A DNA stretch of 64,000 nt. Source: Porphyra umbilicalis (lineage: Eukaryota; Rhodophyta; Bangiophyceae; Bangiales; Bangiaceae). Position 1 is the stretch's first letter. Every line of letters starts with the position of its first letter. Below, one piece after another: positions 10,451-38,950 of this stretch. The notes beneath the pieces are model-generated. The model saw only the letters and a list, made by a program, of their open reading frames with translations, had not been told where the DNA came from and did not search any database. The position numbers and the translations under genes are program-made. The DNA lies in assembly GCA_002049455.2 (NCBI GenBank), contig KV918999.1:1-64000 (forward strand), given 5' to 3'.

Positions 10451-10580
10451 ACCTCCATCGACTCGTCGATGGCCGCCACGTTGGAAGAGATGGCACTGCT
10501 GAACAAAGTGAAGGAGGGGATACCGTAAAAAACAAGTGCCAACGAAACAACAAGCCAATAGCCCACCCCGTCCGCGGGCC

Positions 10581-17626: not shown

Positions 17627-19679
17627 ATGGTCACCCGGGCGCCCGCTGCGGCTTTCGGCGGCATCTCCCTCACCCCAACACTTGGTCCCTGTTGCCCCCT
17701 CGCCCCCCCCGACCCCGCCGGCATTTCTCTCGCGCTCGACGCGACGGTCGCGGCCGAGGCGCCCCTGTCGTCCCTCCCCGACCACCCCGTGACCCGCGCG
17801 TTGGCGGGTGACAGCCTCAGCCGCCGCTGGCTGCTGCCCGCCGGACCCCGTCGGGTGTTTGCTTGTGGGGATGTCGGCGCTTGTGGCGGCGGTGGGTGCG
17901 GCGACGCGGTCGGCCGCCCGGGGGCGCTGACGGCCGCGGGATTGGCCGAAGCGGTGGGCGTGGTGGCCGACTTGACGACGCTGAGTGGGTGCGTGGTGCA
18001 ACAGATTAATATGATGGTGAGTGGGGGGGGCGGAGCGTGGAGGGATTCGTGGAGGGTGAGGTGGGGGCGCGTGGCGGATGGGTGGGGGGTGTTGACGACC
18101 CTGTGTGTACCGGATGTGGATAGCGTCTAGGTTAGTTTCCATGGCCTGGGTGTTCTTGTGGGGGAGTCGCCAAGAACGTACCAACGACGGCTGCTGACTC
18201 GCGCACATCTCCTGCTGGCCTCTCTCTTGTTTGTCTTTCGCCGCACCTGGCCCGCTGCCCCTCCCCCAGTACGTGCCCTACGCCACCGTCAATGGCCTCA
18301 CGCTCGGCACCCTTGTGTCACAAGCGACTCTCCCCCCCCCCCTGTATGGCGCCGGCTACCCCCCCCCCGTCAGCCCACCGAGCCTCTCCCGCTTCCTCCT
18401 CGACGAGGCCCGCGGCGTCATGGTCGTGGTCGGCCCCCCACCCGGCGGCGGACGGGGCCTCATCGGCTCCTCCTTTGTCGCCGCCGTTGGCGACGGCGAC
18501 GGTGTCGACGACGGCCGCCCCGCCGCGCGCCCGACGCGGAGTATGATTGAGCTCGGGGGCCCCGGCGCGGCCGGCGTACCCGGCGGAGCCCTAACGGTGC
18601 GGCGGCGCGTCGAGTTTGTCGGCGCCCTCGCGTGGGCGCCCGCCCCCGAGGTGCGCGGCCAGGAGCCGCCGACGAGCCCGACCGACTTTCGGGGCTTTGA
18701 CACGCACGTGCGGCGGCTGCTCGGCGCGACGGCGGTGCGGTGCGCGTCGCCCGCCGCCGGCGCGTGCACGCTCGACGGGGAGGCGGCGGCGGCGGCGGCG
18801 GCGGCGGCGGGTGCAACGGCGGGGGAGCGCCCGCCCGCGCCTCGTCAGTGCCTCCTCGCGCCCGCCGCGGACGCGGGCGGGGTGCCGCCGCCGCCTCCCC
18901 CCGCCGCGTGTGGCAGCGGCGGCGGCGGCGGGTGCGGCGGCGGCGGCGCGGCGGCGGGCGCCCCACCCCCCATCCTCGACCGCACCTACTGCTGCGCGCC
19001 CGTGGCGGTGGCGGCGTTGCCCCCCCCCGCGGGCGTAACGACCGTCCTCAGCCCCCTCACCCCGGCGGGCGGGTGGGGCCTCCAAGTGTCCCTCGTGCAA
19101 GCGCTCCTCGACGGCCGCGGCGTCGGGCGGCCGGGGTGGACCGCCGCCGTCTCTGCCGCCGCAGCGGCTGCGGTGGCGTCGACGGCTGCCGGCGGCTGGT
19201 CGTCGACGGCGGTGGCTGGTGGCGGCGCCGTCGGCGGCTGGCCGACGCGGCCCCCGCCGCCGCCGCCGCCACGCTCGGTGGGGGGGGGCCCACCGGCGCT
19301 GCCACGCCTCGCGCCCCGCCCGCTGGCGTGTGCACCCGCGGGTGGTGGGCGCCGCACGGCAGTCTTGATGCCGGCTGTTGCGACGGTGCAGGCGGCGGCG
19401 GCCCCGTTGGCAACGGCGGTGGCGGCGACGGCGGCGGCGGCGGCGCCGCCGCCGCCGCCCGGCGTGCGGCGGCCACGGACGCGCGCGCGGCCGCGGCCCG
19501 GCTCGGCAGAGGCGGCGGAGGCGGCCGCCCGCCGGTGGGCGCAGACGCTGCGGAACCGTGAGGCGGCGGCGCGCGCCAATGCTGCACGACGGCGGCTGCG
19601 GCAAGCGGCAGCGGCGACGGCGGCGGGGAAGGGGGGGCGGGCGGCAGAGGGCGAGGGAGCAGGAGCGTCGCGGTCGTGA
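17627..19679 (+). CDS. Family A-D, member A: unnamed two-exon protein with a bZIP-like C-terminal basic stretch
   Basis: Exon 1 runs from the ATG at 17627 (an alternative in-frame ATG is at 17450) to 18016 and ends in a GTGAGT donor. Exon 2 runs from 18270, after a CTCCCCCAG acceptor, to the stop at 19679. The intron is 253 bp, phase 0, and the product is 599 residues. Exon 1 encodes LSSLPDHPVTRALAGDS, then RRWLLPAG and AAGLAEAVGVVADL. Exon 2 opens with YVPYATVNGLTLGT, then EPPTSPTDFRGF, a Cys-containing block near YCCAPVAVAALP, long Ala/Pro/Gly stretches and, near the end, NREAAARANAARRRLR. That last stretch resembles a bZIP basic region, but the usual invariant Arg is Asn and no leucine heptad follows. 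I know no named family; a DNA-binding role is inference. This is the best-preserved member. Confidence 0.72.
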
Positions 19680-20271
19680 CGGGCGCCACGGCGGCGGCAG
19701 CGGTGTCGGTGGTCGCGTGGGCGGCTGTGTCACACGGGCGGTGGGGGTGGGGGGGCGGCAGGGACTCTGGCCTGCGTGGGACCGGACGGACGCGGCGCTC
19801 GGCGCGGGTGCACGGGCGTGTGTCGGACACCTACCGAGGGGGCGGCGGTGGCGTGGACCGGCGGGCGGCTGTCGCGTCCGCCCCGCAGGGCCGCCGCGGG
19901 GACCGCGTCGCCTGGGGCGGACCGCCCACCGTGTGGCGACCGGGCCTGGCGGGGCACGGGGGGGCGGCGTGTGTCTGCGACCGTCGTCTGCAGGCGGCAG
20001 GCCCATCGAAGCCCGATTCCGTTACGAGTCCTGTTGTTGCCTCACGGTCGCCCAACAGAGGCGAATTTGTTATTTACAGTACCGTAGGTTCTTAACGGCC
20101 AGAGGCTGGCACGATTTCCGCTAAAAGAGACTTCCTCCCGTTCAGACTCCCGTTCTCAAATCGGCCAGAGAACAGAATTGGCTCCCGTCCAGTCTATCCG
20201 CGAACGGGACTCCCGCCCAGCCTCCCGTTCCAGATGTCGTTTTTCTGACGTCTTCAGAGAGCGTCGGCAAG
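19680..20271. other. Spacer between member A and the ankyrin gene
   Basis: The first part is GC-rich. At 20090-20270 it becomes mixed, with repeated CTCCCGTTC-like words. It separates two convergently oriented genes, and no element was recognised. Confidence 0.5.
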
Positions 20272-21302
20272 TCAAAAGTGGGTCGGTACTACCCGGTCTT
20301 CCTCCTCTGCCCCCTCCCCCCGCCCGTCCCGACCGCGCAGGCGCCCCCGAAATGGCAGCAGCAGCGCCTGCCGCCGCCCAACCCCGCGCGTGCTCGCCAC
20401 AATGGACATGACCAGCCACCGCCGCGCGCCGCCGAGCGCCGCCAGCCCCGCGCCCCCGTTGAGCAGCGCCATCACCACCCCGCGCGCCTCGCCCAGCCGC
20501 CGCAGCAGCGTCGGGCTGAAGCCAAACGCGTCCCCGGCGGTGCGGGCGGTGCGGAACCAGTGGGCGGCCACCACCGCCATGACGCGGTCGTCGTTGCAGC
20601 GGGGGGTCGGGCCGAGCCACCGCAGCAGGTGCGCGTCGGCGGCCGTTTTCTCAATCCAGGCAAGCACCAGGGACATGGCCGTGTCCCCATCGTCGTTGCG
20701 CGCGCGCGCGCGTCGACGCCGCCGCTGAGCGCGGCGACGACCGTCGGGCGATCTGCGCGGCGGCCGCCCACGTGCAGCACCGTGTTGCCAGCCTCGTCGC
20801 CGGCGGGGAGGAAGGCTGCGATGGGGGGGAGCGACAGCATGGCGGGGCGCCGCGCGGCGGCGGCCTCGTGGGCGGGCGGGCTCACCGCCCCAGCCGGGTG
20901 CTCCGCGGGCAGCTGCGTGACGATATCGGTGTGGCCGAGGGCGGCCGCCGCGGTGAGGGGCGTGCCGCCAAGCACGTTGACGGGCGTCGGGTGCGCGGCG
21001 TGGCGGAGGAGGAGGAGCGCCACCATCCGCGAATCTCCCTCGAGGGCGGCCAGGTGCAGCGCCGTCTGCCCGTCCCGGTCGGCAGCGTTGACGTCAATGG
21101 CCGGGGGTGTTGCCATGGCGGCGGCGGTCGGGGGAGCGTCGGCGGCTGCGCGTCGGGTTTCCACGCTCCCCGCCAGCAGGTCGCCGAGGAGGAGGGAAGC
21201 TGCGGTCAGCAAGCCACGGCGCGCCGCGAGGTGCAGCGGCGTCTGGCCGCGCTTGTTCCGAGCGCCCGCTTTGGCGCCTGCCTGCAGCAACGACCTAACC
21301 AT
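20272..21302 (-). CDS. Ankyrin-repeat protein, frame broken at a (CG)n run, N terminus probably incomplete
   Basis: Ankyrin repeats are protein-binding modules, and partner and role are unknown here. The minus strand encodes RGQTPLHLAARRGLLTAA, then DRDGQTALHLAALEGD with MVALLLLRHA, then GGTPLTAAAALGHTDIV, then GNTVLHVGG, giving about four to five repeats. In the last repeat the frame changes inside a CG dinucleotide run (about 20697-20712), after which NDDGDTAMSLVLAWIE continues the repeat pattern. The C-terminal part (HWFRTARTAGDAFGFSP) runs to the stop at 20272. The ATG at 21300-21302 falls inside a repeat, so the frame, open upstream to beyond 21350, probably continues into an unidentified exon. 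A slipped dinucleotide count explains the break better than an intron. Confidence 0.75.
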
Positions 21303-21350
21303 CACACCGTCCCGGCCGGCGCGCGGCGCCAATGACGCGCGCGACAGCAC

Positions 21351-22098
21351 GACACGCCGCGGCGGGCGGTGGAGGTTGGGGGCGGCGGCTCGGCCGCGCG
21401 GCGCCCGCGGGGCAGATGCGCCACCCCCGGCCGCCGGCGCGAGCCCGCAAATGCCTAGTGGCGGGCCACGCGGGCCACGCCGACAGCGGCGGCGGTGGCG
21501 GCGGCGGCGGCGACGGCGGCGGCAACGTCGGTGCGTGCGTCGACTGCCGGTGGGCGCGTCGATGGGGGTGGCAGCGGTCTCTCTGGCTGCCGGCCGCGGC
21601 AGTGCCGCGTCGATGGCAGCGGTTGGCGGCGGCGCCCCCGGGGGGTGCGCCGCCCGTGAGGGTGTGGGCGTCGCCGGGGAGCGCCCGGCGGCGGCGGGCG
21701 GACGTGCAGCCGCCCGTGCGGACGGGGGCAGTCACGGAAGGACCAGGGACGCAGGGCAGTGGGTCGGCCGCATGCGTGGGGGTCCTTCAGGGTGGGATGC
21801 GACGGCCGCTGTGTGGTTGTCGACGTGGAGAGCGCCGGGCCGGTCACGTCCGCGCGGGTTGGCGCTGGGCCGGGCGCGTCGGTGCTGGCGGCCATCCAGC
21901 CCGTACCGTTCCACAAGGACCACGTCTGCGGGCGATCGCCGTGGTCCTCGTCGGAAGAGACGACCGCGGACGAGGTGCGAACAGACGGCGCGGTAAACAG
22001 AGCAAAGCGGATGAGGCCCAGTCTGCAGTAGTAATAAACTGCTGCCTCGTGCGGCGACAACGTCAACCAGCGTCGCCAGTGACCACCGGCGCCCCCGC
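21351..22098. other. Spacer between the ankyrin and membrane-protein genes
   Basis: The stretch probably contains the N-terminal exon of the ankyrin gene and the 3' flank of the membrane-protein gene, both on the minus strand. The open frames present are Arg/Pro-rich, and I could not pick out the missing exon. Confidence 0.4.
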
Positions 22099-24398
22099 TC
22101 ACGCCCCACCCACCACCCAATACACCGTCCCACGGGGCGTCGCGCGCGGCGCGGGGCGCTCGCCCGGCCGCCGGCGAGGCGACGCCGCCCCCCTCGACCC
22201 GCCGGCTGCAGCCGATGCCGCCGCCGCGGCGTCGCCCGCCCCCAGGTCCCCCCGCGCGGGCGACCACCCGCGGCTCCTGTCAAAGGGCGGGGAGTCGGGC
22301 GCTGGCGCCTGGCTGCTGCCGCCGACGCTGGAGGGCCACCTGCCGGCACTCCCCCCACTGACCGGGGTGCTCCCCCCATCGTCCGACCACGGGCCCCACG
22401 AGGCGGTCGGGCTGCGCTTGCCGCACGCCGCTGCGTCGGCGGCGGCGGCGGCGGCGCCCCCCCCCCCGCCGTGCCCGCCGACCGCAAGCCGCCGCCACGC
22501 CGTCGCGTCGGTCGGCACGTCGACGGAGGGGGGCACGCGGCTCGCCGCCGCAACGGCGGCGGCCCACACGGCCACGAGGGCAATGGCAATGCCGCCTAGC
22601 GGCGCCGCGCGCCACCAGTCCATGGACCCGCAGCCCGCATAGACGAGCGTCTCCGCCGCGCACACGGACGTCACGTCTTCGGCTTTGAGGGAAAAGGCCG
22701 CCCGCAGCGCGTCGTTGCGCGTCAGCGCCGCCGGCAGCGCCTGCACCGAGTCGTTGAGGAGGAAGGGCAGCACGCCGGGGGCGGACAATTGCATCCGCCG
22801 GTACACCGTGAGCGCGTGCGCGAGGTCCGCCGCCGTCAACCCGTCGGTCGCGCACGCGAGGGCGTAGGCGCGCGCGCGCAGCGGCGCGCGCGCGTGGAGG
22901 GTGAGGGGGGCCCCGCTCTCCGAGCGGGAGGCGGCAAAGACGCGCTCCCCCTCCCGCCGACCGAGCGCCACCTCCACGCCCCGCACCGCAATGTGGTACC
23001 GCCCGTCCCGGGTGCCGCCGCCGCCGCCGCCACGCGCGCGTGCCGTGGCGGCGGCAGAGGCAGCGGCGGCCGCCGCCGGTGGGTCGTCGAAAAACACAAA
23101 GGCGCCGCTCAAGACAATGTCGCCAAACACCGCCTGGCCGGGGGCGGGCGTCGGCGTCGGCGTTCCCACGGGGGCGCCGTCCAGTGGAGCTTGGCGCACG
23201 TGGAGGGCCCCATCGAGGCCGCCCCCCCGCGTCCGCCCGCCCCCCTCAACGTCCGCTGCCGGCGCCGGCGCCGCCGCCGCCGCCGCCGCCCCCCCCCATC
23301 CGCCACGGCGGCAGCCGGCGGCGGCGGCGGCGCCTGCAAGCTACTCCGCGACGCCACAAACCGAAACGCCCCCCTCCGCACATACTCAATGCTCCCACAC
23401 CCCCCAGGCACCGCCTCGCACGGCGTCACCCGCAGCTCGCAGTCGGTGGCGAGGACGCGGCGCCCGTCGACGGCGCCCGTCCGCACTTCGGCGGCGACCA
23501 TGCCCTTGGACGCCCCCTCGGGCACGACCGTCCAGTCATTGTCAATCCAGTCGAGGCGGGCGGCGAGCAGCGCCGCCGTGGAGGTGGCCACCGCAACGGT
23601 CCCGCCATACGGCGACGCGCACACCCCGTCGGCGACGGGCACCGCCACGGGCGCGCAGTCGGGGCGGGTGTCCAACCCCGACTCGAGGAACAGCTCCGCG
23701 GGGATGAGGGCGACGAGGCCGACGGCGAGGAGCACCACCCACGCGGCCGCCGCGCGGCGGCGGTGGAGCCAGCTGGGGGGGGGGTCCGCGCCGGCGTCAC
23801 CGCCGTTGCCGTCGGCAGAGCTGCGCGCACCACCGCTCGACGCGGGGGAGGCGGCGTCCGCCCCGCGGCCTCGGGAGTCGCGCCCCCCACCGCCGGGGTC
23901 GGCCGCGCCGAGATGGCCGGCGCCGCGGTCCACAGAGGCGCCGCCCTCGGCGCCGCGGTCCTCGGACGCGGGGCCACGGTCGAGGGAGCCCTGGTCGGCG
24001 GCGCTGCGGCTAAACGAACCCACGGCCCGAAAGGTGTCGGAGCCCCGGTGTGCCGCGTCCCCAGCCGCGCCCCCACCCGGCGCGCCGGCGCTCCCGCCGT
24101 CGACAAGCGGCACCGCCGGGTCAACAGCCACGTCCCAACCCGCCAACGCGTCATTCGTCGGGGCGTCGCGGCCCCCAAAGAGGGGCGGCCGGGCGTGCCA
24201 TAGCCTCCGCAGCCCAGACACGACCCAGTGGCTCAAGTGCAGTTGCGCCACGTTGGTGGCGGACGTCGAGCCCCGTCGGTGCGCCTGCAGGCGCGCAAGC
24301 AAGAGGTAGGTGTGTTCGGTGAGGAGGACGAGCACCACGTGCACGGCGAGTATCACCGCGTTTAGGCCGGCATTGAGGGTGCCGACGGAGAAATTCAT
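22099..24398 (-). CDS. Uncharacterised multi-pass membrane protein, frame broken at a C run
   Basis: The start is the ATG at 24396-24398 (MNFSVGTLNAGLN). A first hydrophobic helix follows at once (AVILAVHVVLVLLTEHTYLL). A Ser/Gly/Asp-rich region leads to a second helix (AAAWVVLLAVGLVALIPA). Then comes an ordered, Cys-containing region (DTRPDC, VAVADG, LATDCELRVTPCEAVPGGCG), which may face the lumen or outside. A third helix (GGIAIALVAVWAAAVAAA) precedes a low-complexity tail ending GTVYWVVGGA. The open frame switches at the C run at about 23288-23297; one extra base there would join GALHVRQAPLDGAPVG to the upstream frame. I recognise no family. The Cys pairs and flanking helices suggest a small receptor-like or transport-associated protein, but that is speculation. 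Confidence 0.65.
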
Positions 24399-26128
24399 GG
24401 CTGTGGGAAGGCAGGGACAGGGGGACAGGGGCGGCCGACAAAAAGGGGATGACGGGCGCGGCTCTGTACCAAGCAGCACGGGAGACGGCAAGGAGGGGAA
24501 GGGGAGGAGCGCGGCGCACAGACACAGTCCGTTCCGACGATTGGCGGCGCGGAGGATGCACAGTCCAAGGCCGCGCGCCGCAGGTCGAGCCGCACGCTCT
24601 GCTGCGGAGCGAGTTCACTTCAGGCTCTGACGCTGGGAGGGTGCGCTGCCGGCGGCGCCCAGCGCCGCCGCCTCCCAGCTCATGGCGAGGCGGCCACGTC
24701 GGCCCACGCGGACGCCGCAGCTCACGCCACGCCTCGACTCATCCGCCGAGGTGCAAGTCGTGGCCACGTCGGCGCCATCCTTGCCTGCGGCAGAGGTGTT
24801 GGCGGCGGCGGTGGGGGCCACGTCGAGCGCAAACCCTCCGTCCGACTGTCCCCGCGGTTGCGCGGTGAAGCGCGCCGCTGCCAGCGCTGGAGAGCGACGC
24901 GGGCGGGCGTGACGTCGATGACAGGTGGCTCGGGGGGGGGGAGGGGGGGTGAGGGGCGACCGCCGTGGTGGGAAAGCGCATGAGCGGCCAGTGCCGGTAG
25001 ATGGCAGAGGCAACACACGCAGTTTTTGGCGCATTCACCATACGATCCTCCGAAAGCGGACTTGGCGTGTCTGCCCTGCTGCTTGGCTGCCATTCTCGCT
25101 CGGAGAACAACCTGAGTTCCCATTGGCAGTACGCAGAGGTGACGGCTAAAAGTCGTGTTTTCGGCTGACACACGCCACCCTGAAAGCGCGTGGCAGCGGA
25201 GGTTAGATGTAGCATAAATACGCCACGGCCGCCCTTAGCTGGGCGTGGTAAGACCGAACTAGCCTAATACATGGCTGTAGTCTGAGTGTGGCATCTCGAG
25301 ACTCACCCTGATTCGCCCTGAATCCATTTCCATGAGAAAATCACATGTGTAATTGAGGAGTCACTGATCCGCGTCCGTGACAGTCTCGTGCTCTCCTCTT
25401 TGTGTTGGCGACACGGTCCGCCACGTGGCGGGCGCTCTGGATCCCGTGTGGTCGCAATCGAGCGGGCTGCCCGAGCCGTTAGGCGCGTCACCTGTCAACC
25501 CCCAGATGACTCGCCCATAGGCGCGTCACCTGTCAACCTCAAGATGACTCGCCCGCCGGCCGCCGCGGCCTTGGCGTTGAGTGGTACACAGCCCCGTGCG
25601 GGACCCGTCTCACACGCATCGAAAGCACAGTGGGGCGCCGCACGAAGCGCCCTGACGCCGGCGCCATCAGAGCTCGACGCATGGCGTCGCTGCAGGCGGG
25701 GGGAGCCCACCTCCACCCTCCTGCCAGTGCTTTTGGTGCTGTCCGAGAGAGGGGGGTCGGTGGTTGGACGCGCCCCCCGCCGGGACGAGCTGCCGGCGTG
25801 GAAAAACCCCATGGCGTGAGCGCCCCGCCCCCCACCCGACGGTGGATGGCGGCTGCGCACCGTGCCGCGTTGCCGTGCCGCGCCCGCGCCCGCGCCAGCC
25901 GTCGAGGGGGGGACGTCCGAGGAGCACACTTGCGCGCGGCCCGCACCACGCAACGTGGTGGAGGCCCTTGGCGACTTGACCGCGGTGGCCTCCCCCCCGG
26001 CTCCCGCGTCGCGTCACCCCCCGCCCTCCGACGCTGCGGGCGGCGTGACGGTAGCGGGCCCCCGTGGCGGTGGAGCTCGTGGCGCTTGCCGCAGCGTGCC
26101 GCTCCCCCGCCCCCGCGGTGGCACCGTG
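24399..26128. other. Intergenic region with a short direct duplication
   Basis: It is GC-rich to about 24950, mixed from 25000 to 25560, and GC-rich again into member B. At 25483-25552 a unit of about 37 bp containing GGCGCGTCACCTGTCAACC and AGATGACTCGCCC occurs twice in tandem. No gene was recognised, but the true N terminus of member B may lie near its end. Confidence 0.5.
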
Positions 26129-27640
26129 ATGGACGCTGGGGTGGCGGGGGAGCCACCGCCGTGGGCGCCGCCGCCCGCCGCCGCCGCGCCAACGGCGTGC
26201 CGGCCGCCGCCGACGCTGTCGCCGACGGGCGGGCGCGCCCCCGGAGGGGCCGTGCACACGGGAGGTGGGCGACAGCGGCAGGCGCTCGGCGCCACCGCCG
26301 TGCCGCCCCTCGCGGACGGCATGAGGCGGTCTGCGGCCGGCGTCCGCGGCGCGGCGGCGCGGCCGCCGCCGTCGCCCAACCGCGGCGACCCCGTGGCGCT
26401 CGCCCTGTCGGTCGACGGGTTGGCCCGGCGGTGGTTGTTGCCGCCCCCCGCCTGTGGCGGCGGGTGGTCCGAGGCGCCTGCGGCGGTGGTGAGGCGGGGC
26501 CTCAACCCGGCGGGCCTCCCGCAGGCGGCCGGCGTGACGTGCGACCAGTGGTTATGGGACGGGTCGGGGCGGAAGCGGTTCTACTTGGTGGTACGGGCCG
26601 TGCTAGGGGTGGGCTGCAGGGGGTTGGGTGGAGAACCAGGCGGTTAGAATGGAGAGGAAGCGCCTTCAGCTGTGGTCCCTTGGCAACGCGCGGCCGTGGA
26701 ATGTGCCAACACGGCGTGCGCCGTCCGGTTGCAGTTGCAGTGGATCCATCATCATGAACTGACGTCTTGTGTTTGGTACGCGCCGGTCCCGTACCCGCCC
26801 CGACGTTGTGCGCCACGGGCACTCGTGTCGCCCTGTGTTGCTCGTCCCCCCCCCTCTCCTCCTGCAGTTTCTCCCGTTTGCCACCGTCAATGGCCTCACA
26901 CTCGGCACCGTCGTCTGCCAAGCGGGCGGCCGCACCCCCCTGGACGGTGGCGACCGAGGCGGCACCCCCCCCCGCCCCCCAACCGTCGGCCGCTTTGTGC
27001 TCGACGAGGGCGCCCGCTCCCTCGTCACCGTCACCGCGGCCGCCGACGGCAATGGCGTGACGGCACTCGGCGTCGACGGCGGTGACGGCGGCGGCGGCGG
27101 CGCCGCCGCCGCCGCCGACGGCGGCGCCCCGTCACGCCACGCCGTGCGCCTGGCCGGCGACGGCACCCGCGGCGTGGCCGGTGGCGCCCTCATCCTCCGC
27201 GAGCGGGTGGCGCTCGTCACCCCCCCGGGGTGGGGGCGGGGACGGCCCTACGGCGGCGCGGGTACCGTCCCCGCGTCACTGCCATTGCCTTCGGCGGCGG
27301 CCGCGGCAGCGGCGGCGGCGGCGGCGCGGCCGCCGACCAGCCCCGTCGACTTCACCCACTTTTCCGCGCACCTGGCGGACCTGCTCGTCACGCGCGGTGG
27401 TGGCCGCGGTGGTGGTGGCGCCGCCGGTGGGGTGGATGGGGGTGGTGCTGGCGTCCCGCCGGCGGCAGCAGCCGCCGCGACCCACCGCTGGGCCGTGTAC
27501 ACGCCACTACCGGCGGCGGCGGGCGCGGCGTTGCGGGCAGGCCTCGAGGGGTGGGGGGGGTGGGGACGCTGGGGGCGTGTTGGTTGCCGTTGCCGCCGCC
27601 ATTGTCGCTGCCGAGGCGGGGAGGTGGCACGCCTAAAGGC
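26129..27640 (+). CDS. Family A-D, member B: probably truncated
   Basis: Exon 1 uses the in-frame ATG at 26129 as its likely start and carries VDGLARRWLLPPP, followed by LNPAGLPQAAGV, matching member A (RRWLLPAG, AAGLAEAVGV). The donor is not clear; candidates lie near 26585-26595. Exon 2 starts at 26868 after a TCCTCCTGCAG acceptor with FLPFATVNGLTLGT, then RPPTSPVDFTHF, then RWAVYTPLPAAAGAALRAGL. Homology stops near 27640, where the composition turns AT-richer, and the bZIP-like end seen in members A and C is missing. It is either truncated or a pseudogene; the frame ends at 27701. Confidence 0.62.
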
Positions 27641-30112
27641 TCTAGTCAAGCAGGCTCGTCAGGGTCTGAGCCAGGGATTAAAAAAGTCGAACCGTTTATA
27701 GCTGCGATTGATTAGCAAAGCTTCTCAAGGTCGATTCCACGCACCAAGACGCATGGACGAGACCCATGGTGGCGCCCCCAGAACTCAGCAATGGTGCAGG
27801 TGCATGCGCTTGCCATGGACATGCCACGGAGCCTTCTCCATCAGCTTATTTATGACGCACTTGCAGACGGCTACGACCACAGGCTGGTGAGATAGGGGTT
27901 CATTCTTACGTCCCACCGTTGTACATAACCCCATTTTCTGCCATATCGTGCCCGCTGGTGACGCTGCACTCCGTAACTCGACGTGGCCTGGCGACAAAAT
28001 GCGTGTCATAGGTGCTGCGGGGATGTCTGGACCGCATTTGCGGCCGTTCGGGCACAATGGCGGTGGTGGCGGGGGGCAGATGATGCTCGTAGCCTGGTGA
28101 CAAAAAGCGTTTTTTTCCATGTGATGCTATGTGGTCAATCCTACATTTGGTAGGGGGGACCACATCACACGCCCGATGGACTCGTGTCCACCGTGAGACT
28201 GTTGAGGTCCAGGCGCAGACTTGGACCGCGACTCAAGTAGTACGGCTGGGACAAGTTAAAAATTCAGATATCAGAAATCGGTGTGAATCTCAGCTGGACC
28301 GATTTCAATTGTGATGAGGACCATAGCCACGTGATCAATTTACTCTACGCACGACAACATTCTGCGAAAGTCACGGGGCGCATGGTGAAATCGGGAACGC
28401 TTGAAGACCCCCGTCCATGTCCCCCGTACGCGTCTCAGTGTGCATCGTTGCATATTTCACGACGCTTTTACCGTTGCCGTCGGTTCAGCCAAGAACGACG
28501 TCTGCGGTGTGTTCATCGACAGGTGCCCAACGCCCAGCACCCTCCTTCAACGGAGTGGGAGACTTCTCCTCTCTGTTAGTGCATGGGCGTTGCGTGGCTT
28601 CAAGGTCGGTTGCACCCCCGCGGCGTGACTTCTGTAGCCCATTGTGCGCCTGTGCGGTGACGCCGGCGTCTACCCCACGACTCGTTCACTCACTTCCTGG
28701 CGATAGATCTCTCTTTGTCTTCCTGCAGTGCTGAGCACCGCATCTGTTTGCCGCCAGCGTTCTCTCCGGCTCCGACCGTCTGGTCGGTCTTGACCTGCCG
28801 TCGCCACCGCTGCCGCTGCCGCGGGTACTACTGCCGCCATCTTCGCCGCCTTCCGTACTTTCCGCTGGCCTTTCCCATTCGGCATTGTCCGTGCCGCTGT
28901 GGCAACGCCGAATTTCCGCCGCTGCGAACGGTGGTGCCCCCCGTTTGGATCGTCTTGCAATCTCGCTACGGCCAACCTTTGGCATCAGCTCCATGACGCT
29001 TTTCCGCCGCAGGAAGGAGACGCGGCCGCAGCCTGGCTGCTGGAGGTTCGGACAGTGCTTCCAAGCCCAACAACCGCCGCCATCTCGCTTTTCCCGTTTT
29101 TGGCAACTATTCTCACGCCGCTCTCGGTCACAGGCACGTGCGGGCCGTCGACGGCGACAGACTGACAATGGTTGCATCTCCTGCAACTGCGCCTTCGGCC
29201 GGTGCTTCAACGGGAATAACGTGTCAGTCAATTTCCCGCTTGGGTGAGCGAGGGTGATGGAACGGCATCGGCATCGATCCTTTTCGTCTGCTTGGTGCGG
29301 GCGTCGCAGCGGCGCGCATCGCCTTGAGGACGATGGCGGCAAGGTGGGCTGCCCCGCGTGTGCGCTCGTCGGCTCTTCGCGGGTGAGGACGGGACAATCG
29401 ACTTGGGACGTCGCCCACAGCCGCGGCAGCGTCGAGCACCGACCGACGTCGCCACCGCGCTGGCGGCGACAGTTCCCTGTCACCCGCCCTTTGCTACCTA
29501 TTTTTTCGTTCGTGTTTCCGCAAGGTCTCGGGTGAGTGTTGGCCTCCCTTCTCTGTTCTCTTTTTTGTTTTTGTTGGCTTGTTTGTTGTACGTGCGCCTG
29601 CCTTCCTCTCTTAGACACCGTGGTCGCCGATGGGTCGGCCTTGTCTTCTTTGAGCAGCTCTTACCCGTACCTGGATGTTGTCGATGCGTCAACAACTGGA
29701 TGCGAAAGCTCTTCCCAGCAGCCCAGGAAGTGGGGATGGGCGGCGGCCAATGTTTCTGGTTCCAGGCACCAACTACTTTAGATTGTCTGCTCTACAGTTA
29801 ATAGCTCTCACACCTTGCCCGCGGCGTGCTGTGTTGGCCCGTCGGTTGTTCTGTATGCGGACCTGACGGCATTCCATTTACGCTTTCCTCCAGCATGTAG
29901 CGGCTCCTTGGACGCGTGCAACTCAGTTTTTAGGGTAGCGACTGCGGCCACTGCGCGTCCCTGACAAGCCTGAACATGGGGCCCACGGGAAAGTATGTTC
30001 GTCCACCTCTGCGTGACACGCTGCAGGCTGCATCCCGCTCTTTTGTTGCTGTGGGATTGCTCATTCTTAGTGACCCGCGCGTCCGTCTCGTCACGTGCCG
30101 TGATCGTTTTCT
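27641..30112. other. AT-richer intergenic region
   Basis: This is the longest stretch of balanced composition in the window. Some medium frames are open on the plus strand (for example around 28900-29165 and 29358-29800) and on the minus strand (28686-29618), Ser/Arg-rich and without a domain I can name. CTTCCTGCAG at about 28720 looks like an acceptor but I could not pair it with a donor. An unrecognised gene is possible here. Confidence 0.4.
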
Positions 30113-30176
30113 GGTTGCTACAGCCATTCTCCCAAAATCCCGCACGTGCGGGATTTTTCGGAGAACGGCTGTAACC
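30113..30176. repeat. Imperfect foldback with a 24-bp palindromic core
   Basis: The core AAAATCCCGCACGTGCGGGA extends to a perfect 24-bp palindrome at 30134-30157. Outside it the pairing resumes with TTCTCC/GGAGAA, TACAGCC/GGCTGTA and GGTT/AACC, interrupted by single mismatches and bulges. The whole unit folds back over about 64 bases. It may be a miniature inverted-repeat element. Confidence 0.85.
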
Positions 30177-30204
30177 TCGTCATCATTGTTCCGCCCAGCC
30201 TGCT

Positions 30205-30843
30205 ATGCATACCCCCGCTCGCGAAGATTTCCCCCCTTTCCCCAGTTTTCGCTTCGACCCCCCACAGGCTCCCCGCCCTCTCCCGTGCAGCTTCCTATAT
30301 CCAACAAGCGCTCTTTGTGCTCGGCGGCCACCTACCCACCCCCCCATCTCCGATGCGGCGGCGGCACCAACGACCCAGTTCCCCTGGGCGCCCGCCGCGA
30401 CCACCGCTCTCGAGGGGTGGATGGATGCCCACACCGCCGCCCTCTCCTCCCTTACCGCGTTCATCCTCCCTGGCGGCATCTCTGCGGCGACCGCCATTCA
30501 CGCTGCCCGCACCGTTGCACGGCACGCGGGGTGGGAGGCAACCGACTTGGTGCGGGTGGGGGGCATGCGGTGGGACGTGTACGCGTGCTTGAATCGCCTG
30601 AGTGACTACCTCTGTGTCGCGGCGCGAGTGGCCATCGCGGCGGTGAAGGAGGGAAACTGTTTTTGGAACATGGCCGCGTTGCCGGCCGCGGTGTGCGCCA
30701 CACGGATGGGGGGGGGGGGGGGCGTGCCGGCAATGGCGCCGCCGGCAAAGACGAACGGCGTTCCAGACATGGAAAATCACGACGCCGGCCGCCGACGCCG
30801 GTGCCACTGGCAGGCCGGGAAAAGGCCGAAGAGAGGCGGATGA
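30205..30843 (+). pseudogene. Fragment of ATP:cob(I)alamin adenosyltransferase (MMAB/PduO type)
   Basis: The plus-strand frame encodes the C-terminal half of this enzyme, which adenosylates cob(I)alamin for methylmalonyl-CoA mutase. LEGWMDAHTAALSSLTAFIL, then PGGISAATAIHAARTVARHA, then CLNRLSDYLCVAAR follow the family order. The N-terminal half, with its nucleotide-binding Gly/Ser-rich start, is not found in the 1-2 kb upstream. In human MMAB the motif CRAVCRRAER supplies substrate contacts; here it reads ARTVARHAGW, so the second of the paired Arg, the Glu and the next Arg are changed. The tail (after NCFWNM) does not match the family. I read it as a decaying fragment. It could instead be the last exon of a gene with very distant exons, but the changed residues argue against that. 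Confidence 0.7.
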
Positions 30844-31349
30844 GACGGTGGTGGCCTAAACTTTAGGTTGCATGGCGTGCGCGCTGCGACGCAGCTGTGA
30901 TTGTTGCGCGCGACCGCGGCTGTTTCAGTAGCGGCCGCGCTGCGCACTCCGTGGCGGTGCCGTGCGGGCCTTTGGCGTCCACGCCGTGCTCCACGAGCTG
31001 TCGCGGCGCTGTTCTGGCCGCCCCGCATCTGCTTGTCTGGACCGACGCCCGGTTCCGTTGGGTCGGGCGGCTTCCACGGACGGTGGTGGCAGAGCCAGGT
31101 GGCGCGTCGCCCCTCCCGTGTCTTTTTGTGTCAAAGGGCAGACGCGCACCACTGGTGTTGCCACGCCGGCCATCGCCGCTGGTCAGAGACGGCGCGGACG
31201 CGGGGGCGGCGGCGCGTGGTCGGCCAACGGCCCCCCCCGTGTTCAAAAAAAAAAAAAGGCATGCGCTGACCGACTGGCCGCGTTGTGCGCCCCGCCCCGA
31301 GTCGATCATGGTCGACGTGGGGGCCACGGGCGCCTAGCCCCCCGCCGCA
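30844..31349. other. Spacer between two gene fragments
   Basis: An A-run of about 12 bases at about 31246 is unusual in this GC-rich DNA. The open frames on both strands carry no motif I recognise. Confidence 0.45.
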
Positions 31350-31580
31350 CGCAGCGGGTGGATGGGGCGGCGGTCACGGACGCAACCGCCGCACCCGGCG
31401 GCCCGTACGCCGCCGCGACCCGTCGCTAGGTCGAGTCCACGCCGCTGCCAGTGGCGGCGGGCGTGGCGTTGCGGGCGGGCCTCGGGGGGTTGAGGGGCGC
31501 GGGGAGGGGGGGGAGGGTTGGACGCTGTGGCCGCCGCCATTGTCGCTGCCGAGGCGGGGCGGTGGTGAGGCGATGGGGGG
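31350..31580 (+). pseudogene. Fragment of family A-D (3' part related to member B)
   Basis: About 230 bp match member B at 27430-27630 at DNA level. Shared words include GGGTGGATGGGG, TGGCGTTGCGGGCGGGCCTC (member B differs at single bases) and CCGCCGCCATTGTCGCTGCC. In the matching frame it encodes STPLPVAAGVALRAGLGG, like member B's YTPLPAAAGAALRAGLEG, with an in-frame stop just upstream. Only this block is present. Like member B it loses similarity soon after the CCGAGGCGGGG box, so the two probably descend from the same truncated copy. Confidence 0.72.
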
Positions 31581-32759
31581 CGGGGAGGGGGAGCAGGGAG
31601 GGGGGGCGGGGAGGGGAGGAGGGGAGGAGGGGGGGGGACAGTGGGTGGTTTGCGCGGTCGGACGGGCGGAGGGGGGGGGGTCGTATGGTCGTTGCGTCAA
31701 AAGCTGGACAGTCCCAGACAGGCGGATCGACGTTTGGGCCAATCAAACGCACAAAAGCTCCTCTTTGACAGGCCTGGACTCTCCACTTTTTGGCGGAACG
31801 ACAATAATGGGTTGGTTTTGGCGCGGAGACCCTCCCCGTAGTAGGGCTCCATGTACTTAATTCGTGCCGCGCCGTGTGGATTGTCTGACTGTGGCCCCCG
31901 CCAGCTGTGCTGCCGTCAGCCGCCCCGCCCACCAGCGCCACGCGCGCCACGGGGAGCCACGGGGAGCCACGGCCGTGTGGGGAGCCACGGGGAGCCACGG
32001 CGCGTGTGCACGCCGTCGGCGAGACGGGGGGCGCCCGCCGCCCGGCCACCGCCACCCCGCCCCGCGCGCACGAGCGGGCGCCGACGGCCGCCGACGCGCA
32101 CGTCGGCGGGCGGCACCGTCGGCTGCGGCAGCGGCCGACGGCCGCTGCCAACCACGCGCGTGGCGGCTCCCCGCGGCGGCACCGACCCGTGCGGCGGCAT
32201 ATCGTGTCGGCGGGACGACGGCGGGTTTTTGTCGGGGGGGGGGGGGGCTCCCGCACTAATCGCGCGCCGCGTCGGCGCGCGCGCGCCGGCGGCCGTCCGG
32301 CCGCGCGGCGCCGCCGTCGCCTCGATGCGCGGCAGGCGAGCGGCCGCCCACGGCCGTGGGCGGTCGCTCGCCTGCCACCCATCGAGGTCGACGGCGGGCG
32401 CCGCGGGCGCCGCGCGCCCCACCGCTCCCCCGCGCCGCGCTCCCCGCCAATCCCCCCCGCGGCGCCGACGGGCGGCCGATGGCGGGCCCCACCGGGCGGT
32501 CGCGCCCCGCCACCCGCTGCGCCGGCGCGTGGCGCCCCCCCGCCCCCCCACGTCGGAATCCCCCGCGTGGCCGCCGCCTGCGGGGCCACCCCGGCCGCCC
32601 CTGGATCAGTCGGCGCCGTCCCCCCTCGGCGGCGCCGCCGCCGCGGCGCCGCCGCCCCCGTGGGGCGCCGCCTCCCCCCCCCCCGGCACCCATGACGGCC
32701 TGCGGCGGCGCCCGCCGCCGCAGAGCCGGCGGCCCACCCCCGTGCCAGTGTTGCGGTGG
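31581..32759. other. Spacer with short repeats and a large foldback
   Basis: GGGGAGCCAC words recur several times at about 31950-32000. A long foldback lies at 32300-32405 (separate entry). The minus-strand frame of member C stays open through here to 31426, but its translation becomes Arg/Pro/Gly low-complexity and I do not regard it as coding. Confidence 0.5.
32300..32405. repeat. GC-rich foldback (inverted repeat)
   Basis: Arms of 34 bp around 32320-32353 and 32354-32387 pair with about four mismatches, and weaker pairing extends outward to about 32300 and 32405. The arms include CCTCGATG, GGCAGGCGAGCG and CCGCCCACG, and their complements. No loop is needed, because the centre is itself palindromic (CCCACGGCCGTGGG). 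Confidence 0.8.
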
Positions 32760-34616
32760 CCGGGGGCACCCCCCCGCCACCCCCCCCCGGCATCCCCCCC
32801 ACGCCCGCCGCCGCCGTTGCTTTGGCGGCCAACCGCCGCTGGCGGCGGACCTCATTCGCGCGCGCCGCCGACTGGCGGTTGCGCTCCCGCCGCGCACGGC
32901 GGGCGGTGGCCACCTCCTCGGGCGTGGCACCGCTGCGGCGGCTCCGCGCGCGGGGGAGTGGCTGGGGGGGGGGGAGCGCGGACGGCGCCCACCGCGGGGG
33001 GGGGTCGGAGCGGCCGCTGCCGCTGCCGCTGCCGCTGCCGCCCGAGGAGGGGGCGTGCACGTCACAGACGCTCGCGGGGGAGCCGACGCGTCGGCCGCCG
33101 GGGGGGAGGCGCCGGGACGGGGCGCGGGCGGGCGCCGGCCGCCCCCAAGGGCGCCCGCCGCCGCCGTCGGAGACGCCACCCGCGTCGCCGTCGGGCGGGG
33201 TAGGCGGCGCGAGGTGGCCCACCGGCCGCTGCACGCCAGCGGAATTGCACGTGGCTTGCACAAAGCCGACTTGCAGGCGCCGCACCGCCGCTAGTGGCAG
33301 CGGGCAAAAGGACGACGTGGCTTCATCGATGCCCGTGGGGGGCGTCGCGGGCAGCCGTTCCCACCAGTGGCTGCCGGGGGGCTGCGGCACCCAGCCCGTT
33401 GGCCGCGGCGAGCCCGACCATGGGGTGGCCGCAGCGGCGGCCGCCCCGCCCTGCCGCGACGGCCGGCCGCGCAACGCCACCTCCCCAAATAGCCGCGCCA
33501 TCTGGTCGACAAAGCCGTCAAAGTCGATCGGACTCGTCGGCAGCGTCGGCGCGAGCGGCGGCGATGCCTCCACCGCCAGCGACGCCGGGAGCCCCCAGCC
33601 GACGCCGCTGGTTATGGAGAGCTGCCGCCGGACGGTCAAGTCGGGCCCGGCGGCGGGGGGCCCCCGCTCTCCCTCTACAGCTGGCGGGAGGTCCATCTGC
33701 AGCACCGTGCGACGGGGGAGCGTCGCCGTCGCTGCGCCGCCCCGCTCACGGCCGTGGATGCTGTAGCCTATGAGGTTGCGGCCGTTCCGTTCGACACCGA
33801 GGGACACGAGCGTGCCCGTTGCTTCGTGCAGGAGGAAGCGTGCGGCGCATTGGGGGCCGTCGACGAGGTCGACGATTGTCGGCGCCGCGCCCACCCGTTC
33901 TTGTTCGCACGGTTTGACCGGTTGGGTGGTTATGGCGCCAATGGTAATGCCGTTGATGGTGGCATAGGGCAGAAACTGGGCGGGAGGGGGACGGGACACC
34001 AGGCATATTGCGCAACGATGCAGGAGCCGCGCGAGGACAAATCTAGACACAGAGACATCCCGACCAGCAAATGTCAGTGACGAGCGTCCTGACAGGTTCC
34101 CCAGATACGCAAAAGCCGAACGCGAGCGATCTTGCAGGCTCCCCTTTGCTACAGTACCCACTGCCACGCACCATCGTGTAGGTCCGCTGCATGAGCTGCC
34201 CCTCTGACGAATGCAAGTCAACCATAACGCTCACCGCCTCGGCCAGTCCCGCGGGGCTAAGACCCCCCGGTAAACACGCCGAGGTGGTCGGGATGCAGCC
34301 GTCCGGCAACAGCCACCGGCGCCCAAAGTCATCACCGGCGAGTACTGCCGCCACGGGGTGATCTCTCAGCGACGAGAGCGGCACGGGCGAAATCGAGGTC
34401 GGTGAAGGGACGGAGATGGGGTAGCCAGGGGGGACCCCACGGAGGTGGGGGGGGGCGATTCGGGCCGACGGCCGCGCCCGCCGCGGGGGTGGGGAGGGGG
34501 GGGGCAGCGCCGGGCGGCGGGGCCCCGCCAAGCGCGGTCGGGGGGGCCGGTGGAGGCTGCTGTGGTCGGTTGGGCAAGGTGGGGGGGGGCAGCGGGTAAG
34601 GCGGGAAGGGGGCCAT
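32760..34616 (-). CDS. Family A-D, member C: two exons, bZIP-like basic stretch present
   Basis: Exon 1 ends at 34172 with a GTGCGT donor and encodes PLSSLRDHPVAAVLAGDDFG, RRWLLPDG and LSPAGLAEAVSVMVDLHSSE. Exon 2 begins at 33975 after a CTCCCGCCCAG acceptor with FLPYATINGITIGA. The intron is 196 bp, phase 0, at the same place as in member A. Exon 2 continues with LPTSPIDFDGFVDQMARLFG, FCPLPLAAVRRLQVGFVQ and, near 32826-32905, ARRERNRQSAARANEVRRQR. The start is unresolved: the nearest plausible ATG (34614-34616) is in another frame, separated by C runs. The 3' end is also unresolved, since the frame passes through more G/C runs after the basic stretch and stays open to 31426. Function unknown, as for member A. 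Confidence 0.68.
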
Positions 34617-36849
34617 GACGAGGGGGAGGTGGGGGGTTCGTCCTCGGGTGCTGCTTGCGTCAGGCACAGCGCCGGCGCCAAGAGGAGGGAGCGGGGCGTC
34701 GGAAAGATTGGAAGGGGAACGCCGGTGCCGTCCTGCCTAATGACGCTGAGACAGTCGTGCAGAGCCGCGAGGCGGAACCGCGGCAGGTCTGATCAGGAGC
34801 GGTCCTCGGGGAGTTTGGGGAGCTGGCGACAAACCAGAACAATGAACACAAACGTGTGATAGGTTTGTTCTGACCTTGCCATCTGAAGCACTTTGGTGGA
34901 CCCGTGTGGCCCGCACTAATTGATCCGTCTCTGGCTTGAGGAGCTGGGTCATTACACTGGATGGGTGACCCTTGCAGAGACGTAGCGGCTCTACGGGAGC
35001 ATGACGGATGCTGTCAGTCCACCTTGTATGGTCAAGCATCGCTTTCGTGCTGCTACGCACACGCCCTCAGCGGCTCACGGACGTATCCACGGACATATCA
35101 GCAGCCGCGTCATTTTTCTGAGGTGAGGCCCGAACAGGAGTGACGAGGGGAGTGACAGTGATACTGTACCCCCCTTGGGTGCAGAACACATGACTGTCCT
35201 CCCTCAATTGGCAATGAGGTACGATTACGAACCGCCTCTCCGTGTCCCATTGCGACGCATGGTGGTCGTGGTTCGAGTTGGCCGTGGTGTGCCCCACGCG
35301 ACACCGCTTTGCCAGCGCCACGTATCCCTTGCCTACGTGCTCGCTCGCCGCAGGTGTACCCTTCTGAAGAGCCGACGGGCGCCGACGCCGCTCGGCCAGT
35401 TCCTTGCGCGCCGCCCCCTTGTCCTTGTTTTCTCCGGCGATCCTGGCTCGCTACTGCCGCCGGTATGTAGCCTGCGAAGCAACGCGTGTACGTCTCCCAC
35501 TGTCCGTGTTGGTGCCCCTTGGAGATTGAATCAAGTCTTCCAGGCTTTCGCCTCTGCAGCAGAGCAGAATCTGCTGCATCTGATGCAAGCGGTAGCGGCG
35601 GCCTCTTGTACCATCAAAACAACCTGTCATGGCGCGATTGCTACTCGCGTAAACATTACAAGAGGGCGGGGGGTCTTGGTCGCCAGGCGCCTGCAGGTGG
35701 AGACGGTGCCGACGGGGCGCTGCGCAACCGCGATGCTTTGACTTATCCGCGCTCATCTGTCGCGGCCACGGCGGTATGAAAGCGCGTACCAACCCCAATC
35801 ATGGTGGCACTCCGCTTGGGCGTGTCCGCATCGCCACCAAGACAAGCTCCACAGCCGACCACCGCCGTCCCTGCTGTGAAGCCATGCCTGCGCGCACAGG
35901 ATCGTCGTACCACCCCCAAACCCGCACCGCATCCCCCTGGCACCAAGTCGGTGGCGAGCCCGTGCGGCAGACGCATCTCGCCCTTGACGGCCGCGGGACG
36001 TGCGGGGGCGGGCGCCCACACCACGGGACGGTGGCGTCGTCCAGAGCCCGCTCGACGCGCACCGCATCGACAGGCGGGGGGGTCCAGCCAGCCTGCCCGG
36101 CACCGCCGGAAAGGCCGTCAGCCTAGGCAGCCTGCCACCCCCCGCCGCCAGCTCGCGCGGGGCGGCCGATACTCGCCGCCGCTGCGGCCAGCGGCGCCAG
36201 CGCCGACCCCTCCTCCCGCACAGCCCACCGCGTCGCGACCGACCGCCGGTCCACGCCGGTGACGCCGACGGCCGCCGCCGCCCGCGTCGTCCGCCGCGGC
36301 GGCGGCGCCGACCTCACCGCGTCCACATGTGTGCTGCGCATGCGCTGCGCTGCCGGTGAAGCACCCGTCGCCACCGTGCGGGGGCGACAAGCGGGTGCCC
36401 GTGTCGGTACATGCGCGACACGTCAGTGACACTCGCACGGTGGCCCAGCCCCCGTCATCACCCCGTCACCAATCCTCCGACCTGCTTCTCCGCCCCGGTG
36501 CCAACGGGGGCTGCACGACTGCCGCTCCTCCCGTCGCAGCGCGGTGGCCACGGCGGCACAAGGCTGCTTCAGGCGCCTCACCCCTCTGCATTGGCGAGGC
36601 GGCCGAGGCGGCGTCCCCCGTGACTACCGCCCGGCCTGCTCCTCCGCTTCGGAGTTGCCGGGGACGGCCGCTGCGTTTCCCGCCGTCCCTGTCGCCGCCG
36701 TCGCCGTCGCCGCGGCCGTCGCCACCGTTGCCGCCACCGCCGCTGCCCCTTGGTCGGCGGCCTGCCGCCGCTCCTGCTGCCGAACCTCGCCGCTCGCCGC
36801 CGCCAACGCCACCTGGTCCCGCACCGCCCGCAAGGAAGCGGTGGCTGGC
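34617..36849. other. Intergenic region
   Basis: It is balanced in composition from about 34700 to 35750 and GC-rich after that. The plus and minus frames that are open carry no recognisable domain. No tRNA, promoter or repeat was seen before the 18-bp array. Confidence 0.45.
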
Positions 36850-37280
36850 GGAGCTACCGGTGGCAACGAAGATGCCGGTGGCGGTGACGATGCGGGCCGT
36901 GGCAACTCTGTCCGCGGGGGCAACGTTGCCGCAGGCAATGGCGCTGTGGGTGGTGGCGATGCTGCCGGAGGCGGCAACGCCGCGGAGATCGAGGATGACA
37001 ATGCCCGCGGCACGGCCGGTGCCAGCAGTGGCGATGTTGCCAGCTGTGGCAATGCCGGTGGTGGCAAAGTTGCCAGTGGCGACGACGCTGCAGGCCGATG
37101 TGACCCTGTCGGGGGCGGTGACCCTGACGGGGGCAGCGACACTATCGAGGGCGGCGACACTGCCGCGGGCAGCGGCGCCGTCGGGGACAGCGACGCTGCC
37201 GACGGCAACGACGCTGCCGGCGGCCATGACGCTGCCGGCAGTGGCGACGCTGCTGGCAGCGCCGACGCCCACGCCAGTGC
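36850..37280. repeat. Degenerate 18-bp repeat array
   Basis: The sequence is built from imperfect 18-bp units of the type GTGGCGACGCTGCCGGCG. In one plus frame this gives a string of six-residue units of the form TLPxAx, and on the minus strand GSVxAx units. The array lies beyond the 3' end of member D. Its unit length keeps all frames open, so I do not read it as a gene on its own. Confidence 0.7.
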
Positions 37281-37359
37281 CGTCGTCCGCGCCGGCAAAG
37301 ACGACCGCCCCACCGCCGGCGCGCCCGCCCGCGGGCCGACCGACGGCGCCGCGGTCACG

Positions 37360-37878
37360 CGCGTTGGCAGCCCCCCTGCCCCCCCCCCCGCCCCCTCCCC
37401 CCTACCCCCCACCCCCCCAGCGGCGGCAGCGGCGGCGGCGGCAGGCGACCCCTCACCAGCGACGATGCGCGGCCCGCGCCGGTGCGCCCCCCCCCCCCCC
37501 CCCCCCCCGCGCCCACACCGCCAGCGGGCGGCGCGGCGGCGGGCCGCGCCGCCGCCGCCCCCGCCGCCACCCCCGCCCCAACCGTCGCCGCCGCGCCGCC
37601 CGCCCCGCGACCGGCAGACACCACCGACAGGGCGGCCAGCGGCGGGGGCACCCCCCCCGGCGCAGACCGGCGGCGCGCCGGCGCCGGCGCGGGCGCGGCG
37701 CCCCCCCCCGCCGCTTGCGGGGCGCGCGCGCGCGCGCGGCGGCGCGCCCGCCGCCGGCGCCCGGCGCGGCGGGGGTGGTCGGCGCCGCCGCGGTGGGGGC
37801 GGCGGGGGGGGGGGGCCGCACCGCCCCCGCGGCCGCCACCGCCGCGGCTATGGCCGCGACGAGGGCGGCGGCAGGGGA

Positions 37879-37922
<44 letters not shown>

Positions 37923-38944
37923 TGCGGCCGCTGCGCGCGGCGGTGGTGGCGGCCGACGGCGCGTCGGGGGGGGGGGCGCCGAGCGCGGCTGCCACGGCGG
38001 GGGGGAGGGCGCCGAGGAGCGGGTGGGTGGCGGCCGCCGGTGGGGGGCCGGCGGGCGCCGCCGTCGGGCCGCACCCGGTGGGGGCGGGGGGGGGGCGGGT
38101 GCGAGCGCCGCCTCGGCCGGCGCCACGCGGCCGTGGCCGGGCGGGCGGCCAGCGGGCGGTGGGGGGGGGGGGCGTGCCCCGCCGGGGGGGGTGGCGCGCC
38201 GCCGTGCCCGGGTGGCGGCCGGGGGCGGGGGGCAACGACCGCCGCGGGCGGCGGCGGGGCCGGCCCCCCCGCCGGCCGGCCGCCACCGACCGCGTGCGTG
38301 ACGATGGTGCCGAGCGCCACGCCGTGGACGGTGGCCAAGGGAAAAAACTGGGGGGGGGGGGGGGGGGGGGGCGCATGCATGGGGGGGGTCCACCCACAAA
38401 AACCACGGCGGCGAGGGACCGACGACGACAACCCGCACGCCGGCGGCGCGACCGCCCGACACGGCGGGTGCGTGGCAACACGGCGCGTTAGTCACCCGCC
38501 CGCCCGCCCGCCCGCCCGCCCGCCCGCCCACCCGCCCGCCGGCGCCGCCAATGCAGCGCCGTCGGGCGGGCGCGCCCCCCCCCCCCCCGGCGCGCCGACG
38601 CGGGGCGGCAGGACCCCCCCCCCCCCCCTCCCCTTTGCCCCTCGCACGTACCTGCAGGCGGGCGCCCCCCCCCCCCCACGACCCCGCACCACCGCCTCTG
38701 CCACCGCCGCGTCTGCCGGCGGGGCGAGCGCCCACGGCGGGGGCCCGTCGGGGGCGGACCCGCCGCCCGACCGCCCCGCCGCGCCGCCGCCGCCGCCGCC
38801 GCCGCCGCCCGACGGCGGCCGCTGCGCGCGGCGACCGCCCGACGCGGTGGCGGCGGCGGCGGCGGCGGCGGTGGCGGGGCGGGCGGGCGGGTGTGATGGC
38901 GGCGGCGGCGACGGGGAGGGGGGGGGGCACCGTCGCTGCTCGGC

Positions 38945-38950
<6 letters not shown>
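37360..38950 (-). pseudogene. Family A-D, member D: diverged copy
   Basis: On the minus strand a CTGCAG|GTACGT donor at 38651 pairs with a CCCCCCCAG acceptor next to 38347. The intron is 304 bp, phase 0. Exon 2 opens with FFPLATVHGVALGTIV, aligning with YVPYATVNGLTLGTLV of member A. Upstream, exon 1 has only weak counterparts (a HPPAR word, RRAQRPPSG in place of RRWLLPAG, and PPADAAVAEAVV in place of AAGLAEAVGVV). Further into exon 2 the sequence is low-complexity with frame changes at G/C runs of up to about 20 bases, and I see neither the PTSPxDF block nor the basic stretch. It is either a decayed copy or badly affected by indels. The ends given are approximate. Confidence 0.5.

Follow-up and report, generated by a model that had tools for sequence, protein, structure and literature searches.

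The window analysed here, the first 64,000 nucleotides of contig KV918999.1 of the red alga Porphyra umbilicalis (C239:1-64000, within a genome of 83.8 Mb in 665 contigs), holds four places, A to D, of a gene family that carries no name. The order of parts in this family is an exon-1 block, a phase-0 intron, an exon-2 domain, a PTSPxDF block, an LxVALVQAxL block, low-complexity linkers and then a basic region of the type found in bZIP transcription factors. The window copies were translated, read in all frames and then scored with two profiles, for the exon-1 and the exon-2 block, which drew on copies in the window and beyond it, with A, B and C in both training sets.

Four places on one contig

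Member A alone among the window copies reads as complete. On the forward strand its exon 1 (17627..18016) starts at an ATG at 17627 and carries the block PLSSLPDHPV...RRWLLPAG...GLAEAVG...QQINMM, matched by the exon-1 profile at 17756-18019 with 108 bits. A phase-0 intron of 253 bp follows (18017..18269, GTGAGT...CAG), and exon 2 (18270..19679) runs to the stop with the YVPYATVNGLTLGT core and 191 bits against the exon-2 profile. Within it lie the PTSPTDF block (18669-18725), the LQVSLVQALL block (19077-19151) and the bZIP-type basic region RRWAQTLRNREAAARANAARRRLRQ (19530..19628), which has the form N-x7-N and no zipper behind it. With the 253-bp intron taken out, the reading frame from 17627 to 19679 makes 600 codons, stop included.

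All blocks are also present in member C, on the reverse strand. Its exon-1 block (RRWLLPDG, 34172..34384) scores 83 bits and has no in-frame ATG upstream in that frame; the phase-0 intron (33976..34171) is 196 bp long (GTGCGT...CAG), and exon 2, which begins with FLPYATINGITIGA and scores 192 bits, spans 32803..33975 if counted up to where the basic region ends. The bZIP-type basic region ARRARRERNRQSAARANEVRRQRRLAAKA (32803..32904) is again N-x7-N without a zipper, and the frame is still open down to 31426, so that the C-terminus is not fixed. C may be active.

Member B, on the forward strand, is truncated at its 3' end. An exon-1 block (RRWLLPPP, 26369..26590, 84 bits) is followed by a phase-0 intron of 277 bp (26591..26867, GTACGG...CAG) and by an exon 2 (26868..27701) that contains the core, scores 174 bits and includes a PTSPVDF block at 27333-27386. 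An apparent remnant of the fourth block stands at 27507-27545, and the stop at 27701 then comes before any C-terminal region; no basic region was found in this exon. The 3' part of B (27471-27627) recurs as a remnant, with 83% identity, at 31409..31565 on the same strand. Member D, on the reverse strand, is a 35-residue remnant of the exon-2 start (FFPLATVHGVALGT, 38237..38347), preceded by CAG and matched with 16.4 bits (E value 0.0026); profile search gave no exon-1 match there and no other block. Both B and D look like relics.

Among the 11 copies, in the window and across the genome, whose exon 1 is matched, 10 show GT immediately behind the final codon of that exon (in the exception, on C509, the match ends 12 positions short), and CAG stands immediately before the exon-2 start in all 14 places of the family; with donor and acceptor both kept, the phase-0 intron is real. 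In C56b the intron would be 199 bp long. A sequence-only reading of the window had proposed four copies sharing an RRWLLP block and one phase-0 intron with a CAG acceptor. The intron position and the acceptor hold, as does the PTSPxDF block reported for A, B and C, and these three members are matched by both profiles, their RRWLLP blocks at the scores given above. D is another matter: because it is a 35-residue fragment, weakly matched in exon 2 and without an exon-1 match, the RRWLLP-like block and the 304-bp intron assigned to it have no support. The lengths of 253 bp for A and 196 bp for C stand, as do their clear donors; B, whose donor had been called unclear, has GTACGG.

Spread, age and relatives of the copies

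Across the genome the family occupies 14 places on nine contigs, some of them weak: A to D on C239, three on C56 (C56a, C56b and C56c) and one each on C567, C4, C18, C509, C180, C190 and C244. Those on C180, C190 and C244 are, with D, weak or broken, and places weaker still on C487 and C360 were left out of the 14. The profiles also recognise copies beyond their training sets, namely exon 1 of C4 (59 bits) and of C56a (89 bits) and exon 2 of C180 (69 bits). The description of the family as a local cluster is accordingly incomplete.

Fast local duplication had been suggested for the cluster. Identities to A in the exon-2 alignment are 36% for C, 43% for B and 42-47% for the six copies on other contigs, and in a tree of nine rows the three C56 copies form the only supported group (96/97), A, B and C not being resolved. 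Since A is no closer to B or C than to copies elsewhere, and since the tree does not group them, the sequences do not support a recent or fast duplication of A, B and C behind the clustering on C239. For the three C56 copies a local duplication does have support, in the nine-row tree only; in an eleven-row tree of exon 2 no branch is starred, the C56 group included. A clade of A, B and C that seemed to emerge from the table of tree groups (one change for C239) was discarded, as that table only separates C239 from C56 and leaves unlabelled rows uncounted.

The conserved residues are written in varying codons. More than one codon is used in 9 of 10 fully conserved columns of exon 1 and 7 of 8 of exon 2 (16 of 18 in all), and differences are only somewhat more frequent at third codon positions (0.52 in exon 1, 0.50 in exon 2) than at first (0.42 and 0.43) and second ones (0.39 in both). 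This pattern, a count of codons and not a test of the ratio of nonsynonymous to synonymous rates (dN/dS), fits constraint at the protein level among old copies. It bears on the idea that the family consists mostly of paralogues in decay, or of pseudogenes left by a former regulator, most of them without present function, an idea compatible with a regulatory role for the few intact copies. The truncation of B, the remnant state of D, the lack of an in-frame ATG for exon 1 of C, the shifted frames in C4, C18, C56a and C56c and the broken frame in C190 would all be expected from decay; against it, donor and acceptor have been kept, conserved residues persist despite codon changes, and in A, C, C567 and C56b no stop interrupts the exon-2 frame before the basic region ends. 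As an account of the family, decay appears unlikely to us, if by no means negligible.

No known family matches the N-terminal blocks convincingly, and in calling the family unnamed the sequence-only reading was right. The exon-2 block found nothing in Pfam (nine members, E up to 10) or in NCBIfam (nine members, E up to 1), the exon-1 block had a single weak Pfam match (DUF4732, E 0.047) in one of seven members, and a sequence search of the PDB returned nothing credible, with best E values of 0.039 (exon 1) and 0.29 (exon 2). Relatives were confirmed neither in bacterial and archaeal genome contigs (20 pattern stretches) nor in viral contigs (14 pattern stretches). The RRWLLP pattern alone is uninformative as a family marker, with 96 matches as compared with 139 for a reversed control. 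An RRWLLP block beside a bZIP on C79 is likewise a chance pattern match, in a region that encodes a zipper-bearing bZIP and has no exon block.

Taken as a whole, the sequence-only reading survives in its blocks, its phase-0 intron and its CAG acceptor; the block and intron of D and a fast local duplication of A, B and C are not supported, and its local cluster is only part of the family. It had overlooked the paralogues on eight other contigs and the bZIP-type basic region, which, further on in the same exon 2, points to a function.

The basic region and its resemblance to bZIP proteins

Downstream of the exon-2 block, R-N-R-x-[AS]-A-A-R-[AC]-N is found in eight copies (A, C, C567, C4, C18, C56a, C56b and C56c). 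The stretch has the general form RRWAQQxRNRxAAARCNExARxRR; in A, C, C567 and C56b it lies within the uninterrupted exon-2 frame, in C4, C18, C56a and C56c in a shifted one, and C180 has a degenerate version, with K at position 1 and N at position 9. Over the eight good copies N1, R2, A5, A6, R7 and N9 are invariant, and codons vary at N1, R2, R7 and N9. A search for the N-x7-N pattern in six frames covered 254 kb, made up of the window and 54 loci, partly overlapping, which had been picked as family, bZIP or RRWLLP loci and are no random sample of the genome; it returned only the eight copies (10 matches, two of them repeats), and none in reversed peptides. On sequence comparison the motif is a bZIP basic-region core in which N-x7-N stands where bZIPs have N-x7-R.

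How far does the resemblance go beyond composition? Scored with a profile of ten bZIPs from the same genome, nine copies of the family reach a summed 178.1 bits, as compared with a mean of 81.4 and a maximum of 134.8 over 1000 shared column shuffles, so that the real sum is reached by none of them. With hhalign, family and bZIP profiles align in register, N on N and R on R, with an E value of 1.9e-4, and the shared core R-N-R-x-[AS]-A-x-R-[AC] is likewise in register with the genome's own bZIPs (PF00170, PF07716). A comparison of seven basic-region peptides with Pfam (E up to 10) brought up four families, each of them in a single member; three are bZIP families, the best match being bZIP_2 with E 0.0056. 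An RNA-binding or charge-driven arginine-rich motif, resembling bZIPs by convergence and with no kinship to them, would account for the abundance of Arg and Ala over about 35 residues, and the loose signatures of RNA-binding arginine-rich peptides count in its favour. It accounts poorly for a match that is in register and that no shuffle equals in sum, and N1, A5 and N9 are fixed, which is not a matter of charge alone; we therefore give this explanation little credit.

In the genome, PF00170 (bZIP_1, E up to 0.001) lists 24 places and PF07716 (bZIP_2, E up to 0.05) lists 26, 30 together. Fourteen of these, minus one repeat and with near-copies included, gave 13 control bZIPs. Position 9 is N in nine of nine family copies and R in all 13 controls, while position 1 is N in eight of the nine copies, with K in C180; L, I, V or M occupies at most two of four heptad positions in the nine copies, and three or four in the 13 controls. 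Lacking N-x7-R/K, a recognisable zipper and a score within the Pfam cut-off, the family is not filed as bZIP; its conserved N-terminal domain is a further difference.

An alternative is an ordinary but divergent bZIP family, with its zipper in an unrecognised exon and plain dimers as its active form. Most red-algal bZIPs are reported to lie outside the Arabidopsis groups, and one account gives the signature of Neopyropia yezoensis bZIPs as N-X7-R/N, so that a few relatives of the family may already be counted as bZIPs (PMC11533322). The downstream DNA argues otherwise: 1.1 kb of genomic sequence behind the basic region, scanned in all forward frames in eight copies, contains no four-heptad stretch in seven of them, and a distant one in C56b, 516 nucleotides into the scanned stretch, the frames beyond the basic region running into Ala/Gly-rich sequence. 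In addition, no exon-1 or exon-2 block was found at any of the 14 control bZIP loci, mostly taken with 1.5 kb on either side. A hidden zipper thus appears rather improbable.

We consider it probable, then, that the family encodes nuclear DNA-binding regulators of red algae with a zipperless, N-x7-N bZIP-type basic region. Several observations weigh against this proposal. The basic region is off the frame of the exon-2 start in C4, C18, C56a and C56c, which may reflect indels, unseen introns or assembly error, and it was not found in B, D, C509, C190 and C244. Every one of the eight copies has GCG at A5 and A6, which therefore provide no synonymous evidence. The region is rich in Arg and Ala, and taken one by one the copies stand out less than their sum does: their scores are reached by 0 to 25 of the 1000 shuffles for eight copies (25 for A), and by 102 for C180. 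The hhalign probability is only 47, the basic-region profile matched no solved structure at E up to 1, and no family copy is among the PF00170 and PF07716 places, of which only 14 of 30 were read as controls, some being near-copies. As for the exon blocks, the exon-2 frames of the window matched no Pfam family (E up to 1), and AlphaFold models of the blocks (three window rows each) reach mean predicted local distance difference test (pLDDT) values of 37 and 46, too poor to use, hinting at most at a strand-rich exon-2 block. Finally, the Ny. yezoensis signature implies that N-x7-N may occur together with a zipper in bZIPs of that alga (PMC11533322).

A candidate family of regulators and its setting

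In bZIP structures the arginine replaced here contacts DNA. Because it is replaced, a changed DNA site would be expected, and we infer DNA binding by the family from its sequence. The basic helix would lie in the DNA major groove and read an altered or half-site motif, binding either as a monomer or as a dimer joined via the N-terminal domain; that conserved domain might do dimerising, sensing or cofactor work. A precedent for the monomer is SKN-1 of Caenorhabditis elegans, a zipperless CNC protein reported to bind DNA as a monomer in vitro (PMC10944932). The family resembles SKN-1 in its bZIP-type basic region without a zipper, here deduced from genomic DNA only. The CNC domain and homeodomain-like arm that SKN-1 keeps were not recognised here, and no common origin is claimed. 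Neither a CNC nor a homeodomain model came up in Pfam searches with six window frames (E up to 1) and seven peptides of the basic region (E up to 10), although short arm motifs could escape them.

Lineage-specific expansions with a changed invariant residue in the basic region are also described in oomycetes. In variant bZIP classes such as C-R of Phytophthora sojae, it is the asparagine that is replaced and a zipper is described (PMC4046829), whereas our family replaces the arginine, keeps the asparagine in eight of nine copies (K in C180) and has no zipper that could be found. Closer to Porphyra, the bZIP signature is given as N-X7-R, with an adjacent leucine zipper, in Neoporphyra haitanensis (PMC10696790) and, as mentioned, as N-X7-R/N, again with an adjacent leucine zipper, in Ny. 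yezoensis, which has 23 published bZIPs, some of which may therefore be kin of the family (PMC11533322). The text of neither account, as consulted, describes an N-terminal domain like that of the family. A zipperless N-x7-N family of red algae was not found described in the open-access literature searched.

A bolder proposal, which we hold tentatively, is that of a distinct class of eukaryotic transcription factors limited to a red-algal lineage, in which an undescribed N-terminal domain, made by exons 1 and 2, would replace the zipper for dimerising or sensing, and a bZIP-derived N-x7-N helix would read a site that no known bZIP reads. Even short of this, eight copies with a basic region make a sizeable family beside 30 Pfam-listed bZIP places, and, as none of these places is a family copy, catalogues based on these models alone would probably miss it; TAPscan v3 works with extended profiles (PMC8304369). 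With its asparagine kept, and its arginine and zipper gone, the basic region would let one test on a natural example how much of the bZIP grip on DNA is indispensable. The conserved domain that accompanies it, for which no relative was recognised, is a candidate for a new regulatory or dimerisation domain.

The surroundings of the family deserve a few words. Between A and B, an open frame of 419 residues on the reverse strand (20475-21731) encodes ankyrin repeats (Pfam Ank_2, E 3.8e-16). A stretch of 296 bp on the forward strand upstream of A (16343-16638) has at least 41 matches in the genome, of which 13 are identical over the full length, the window's own copy included; it is a recently multiplied repeat, probably a mobile element. 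On the reverse strand, 39717-39420 is 72% alike to it, which had raised the possibility of an inverted duplication of the neighbourhoods of A and D; as the first stretch is a genome-wide repeat, a mobile element is more likely than a gene duplication, and the possibility was dropped. Tandem-type repeat blocks occupy 1516-2936 and 8698-10455, with units of about 114 and about 170 bp by self-match spacing.

Among the genome's bZIPs, nearly identical zipper-bearing ones (KLRNRASAARSRDKQR) stand at L085 6059 (C239:121 kb), thus on the window's contig, and at L086 (C79), and the bZIP domains of L014 and L015 on C36, 260 kb apart, are identical over the part compared; L020 has a third close copy. 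Across the genome, as fits a red alga, light-harvesting domains are found at 10 places and phycobilisome linker domains at 12, four of these on C665, taken for the plastid contig.

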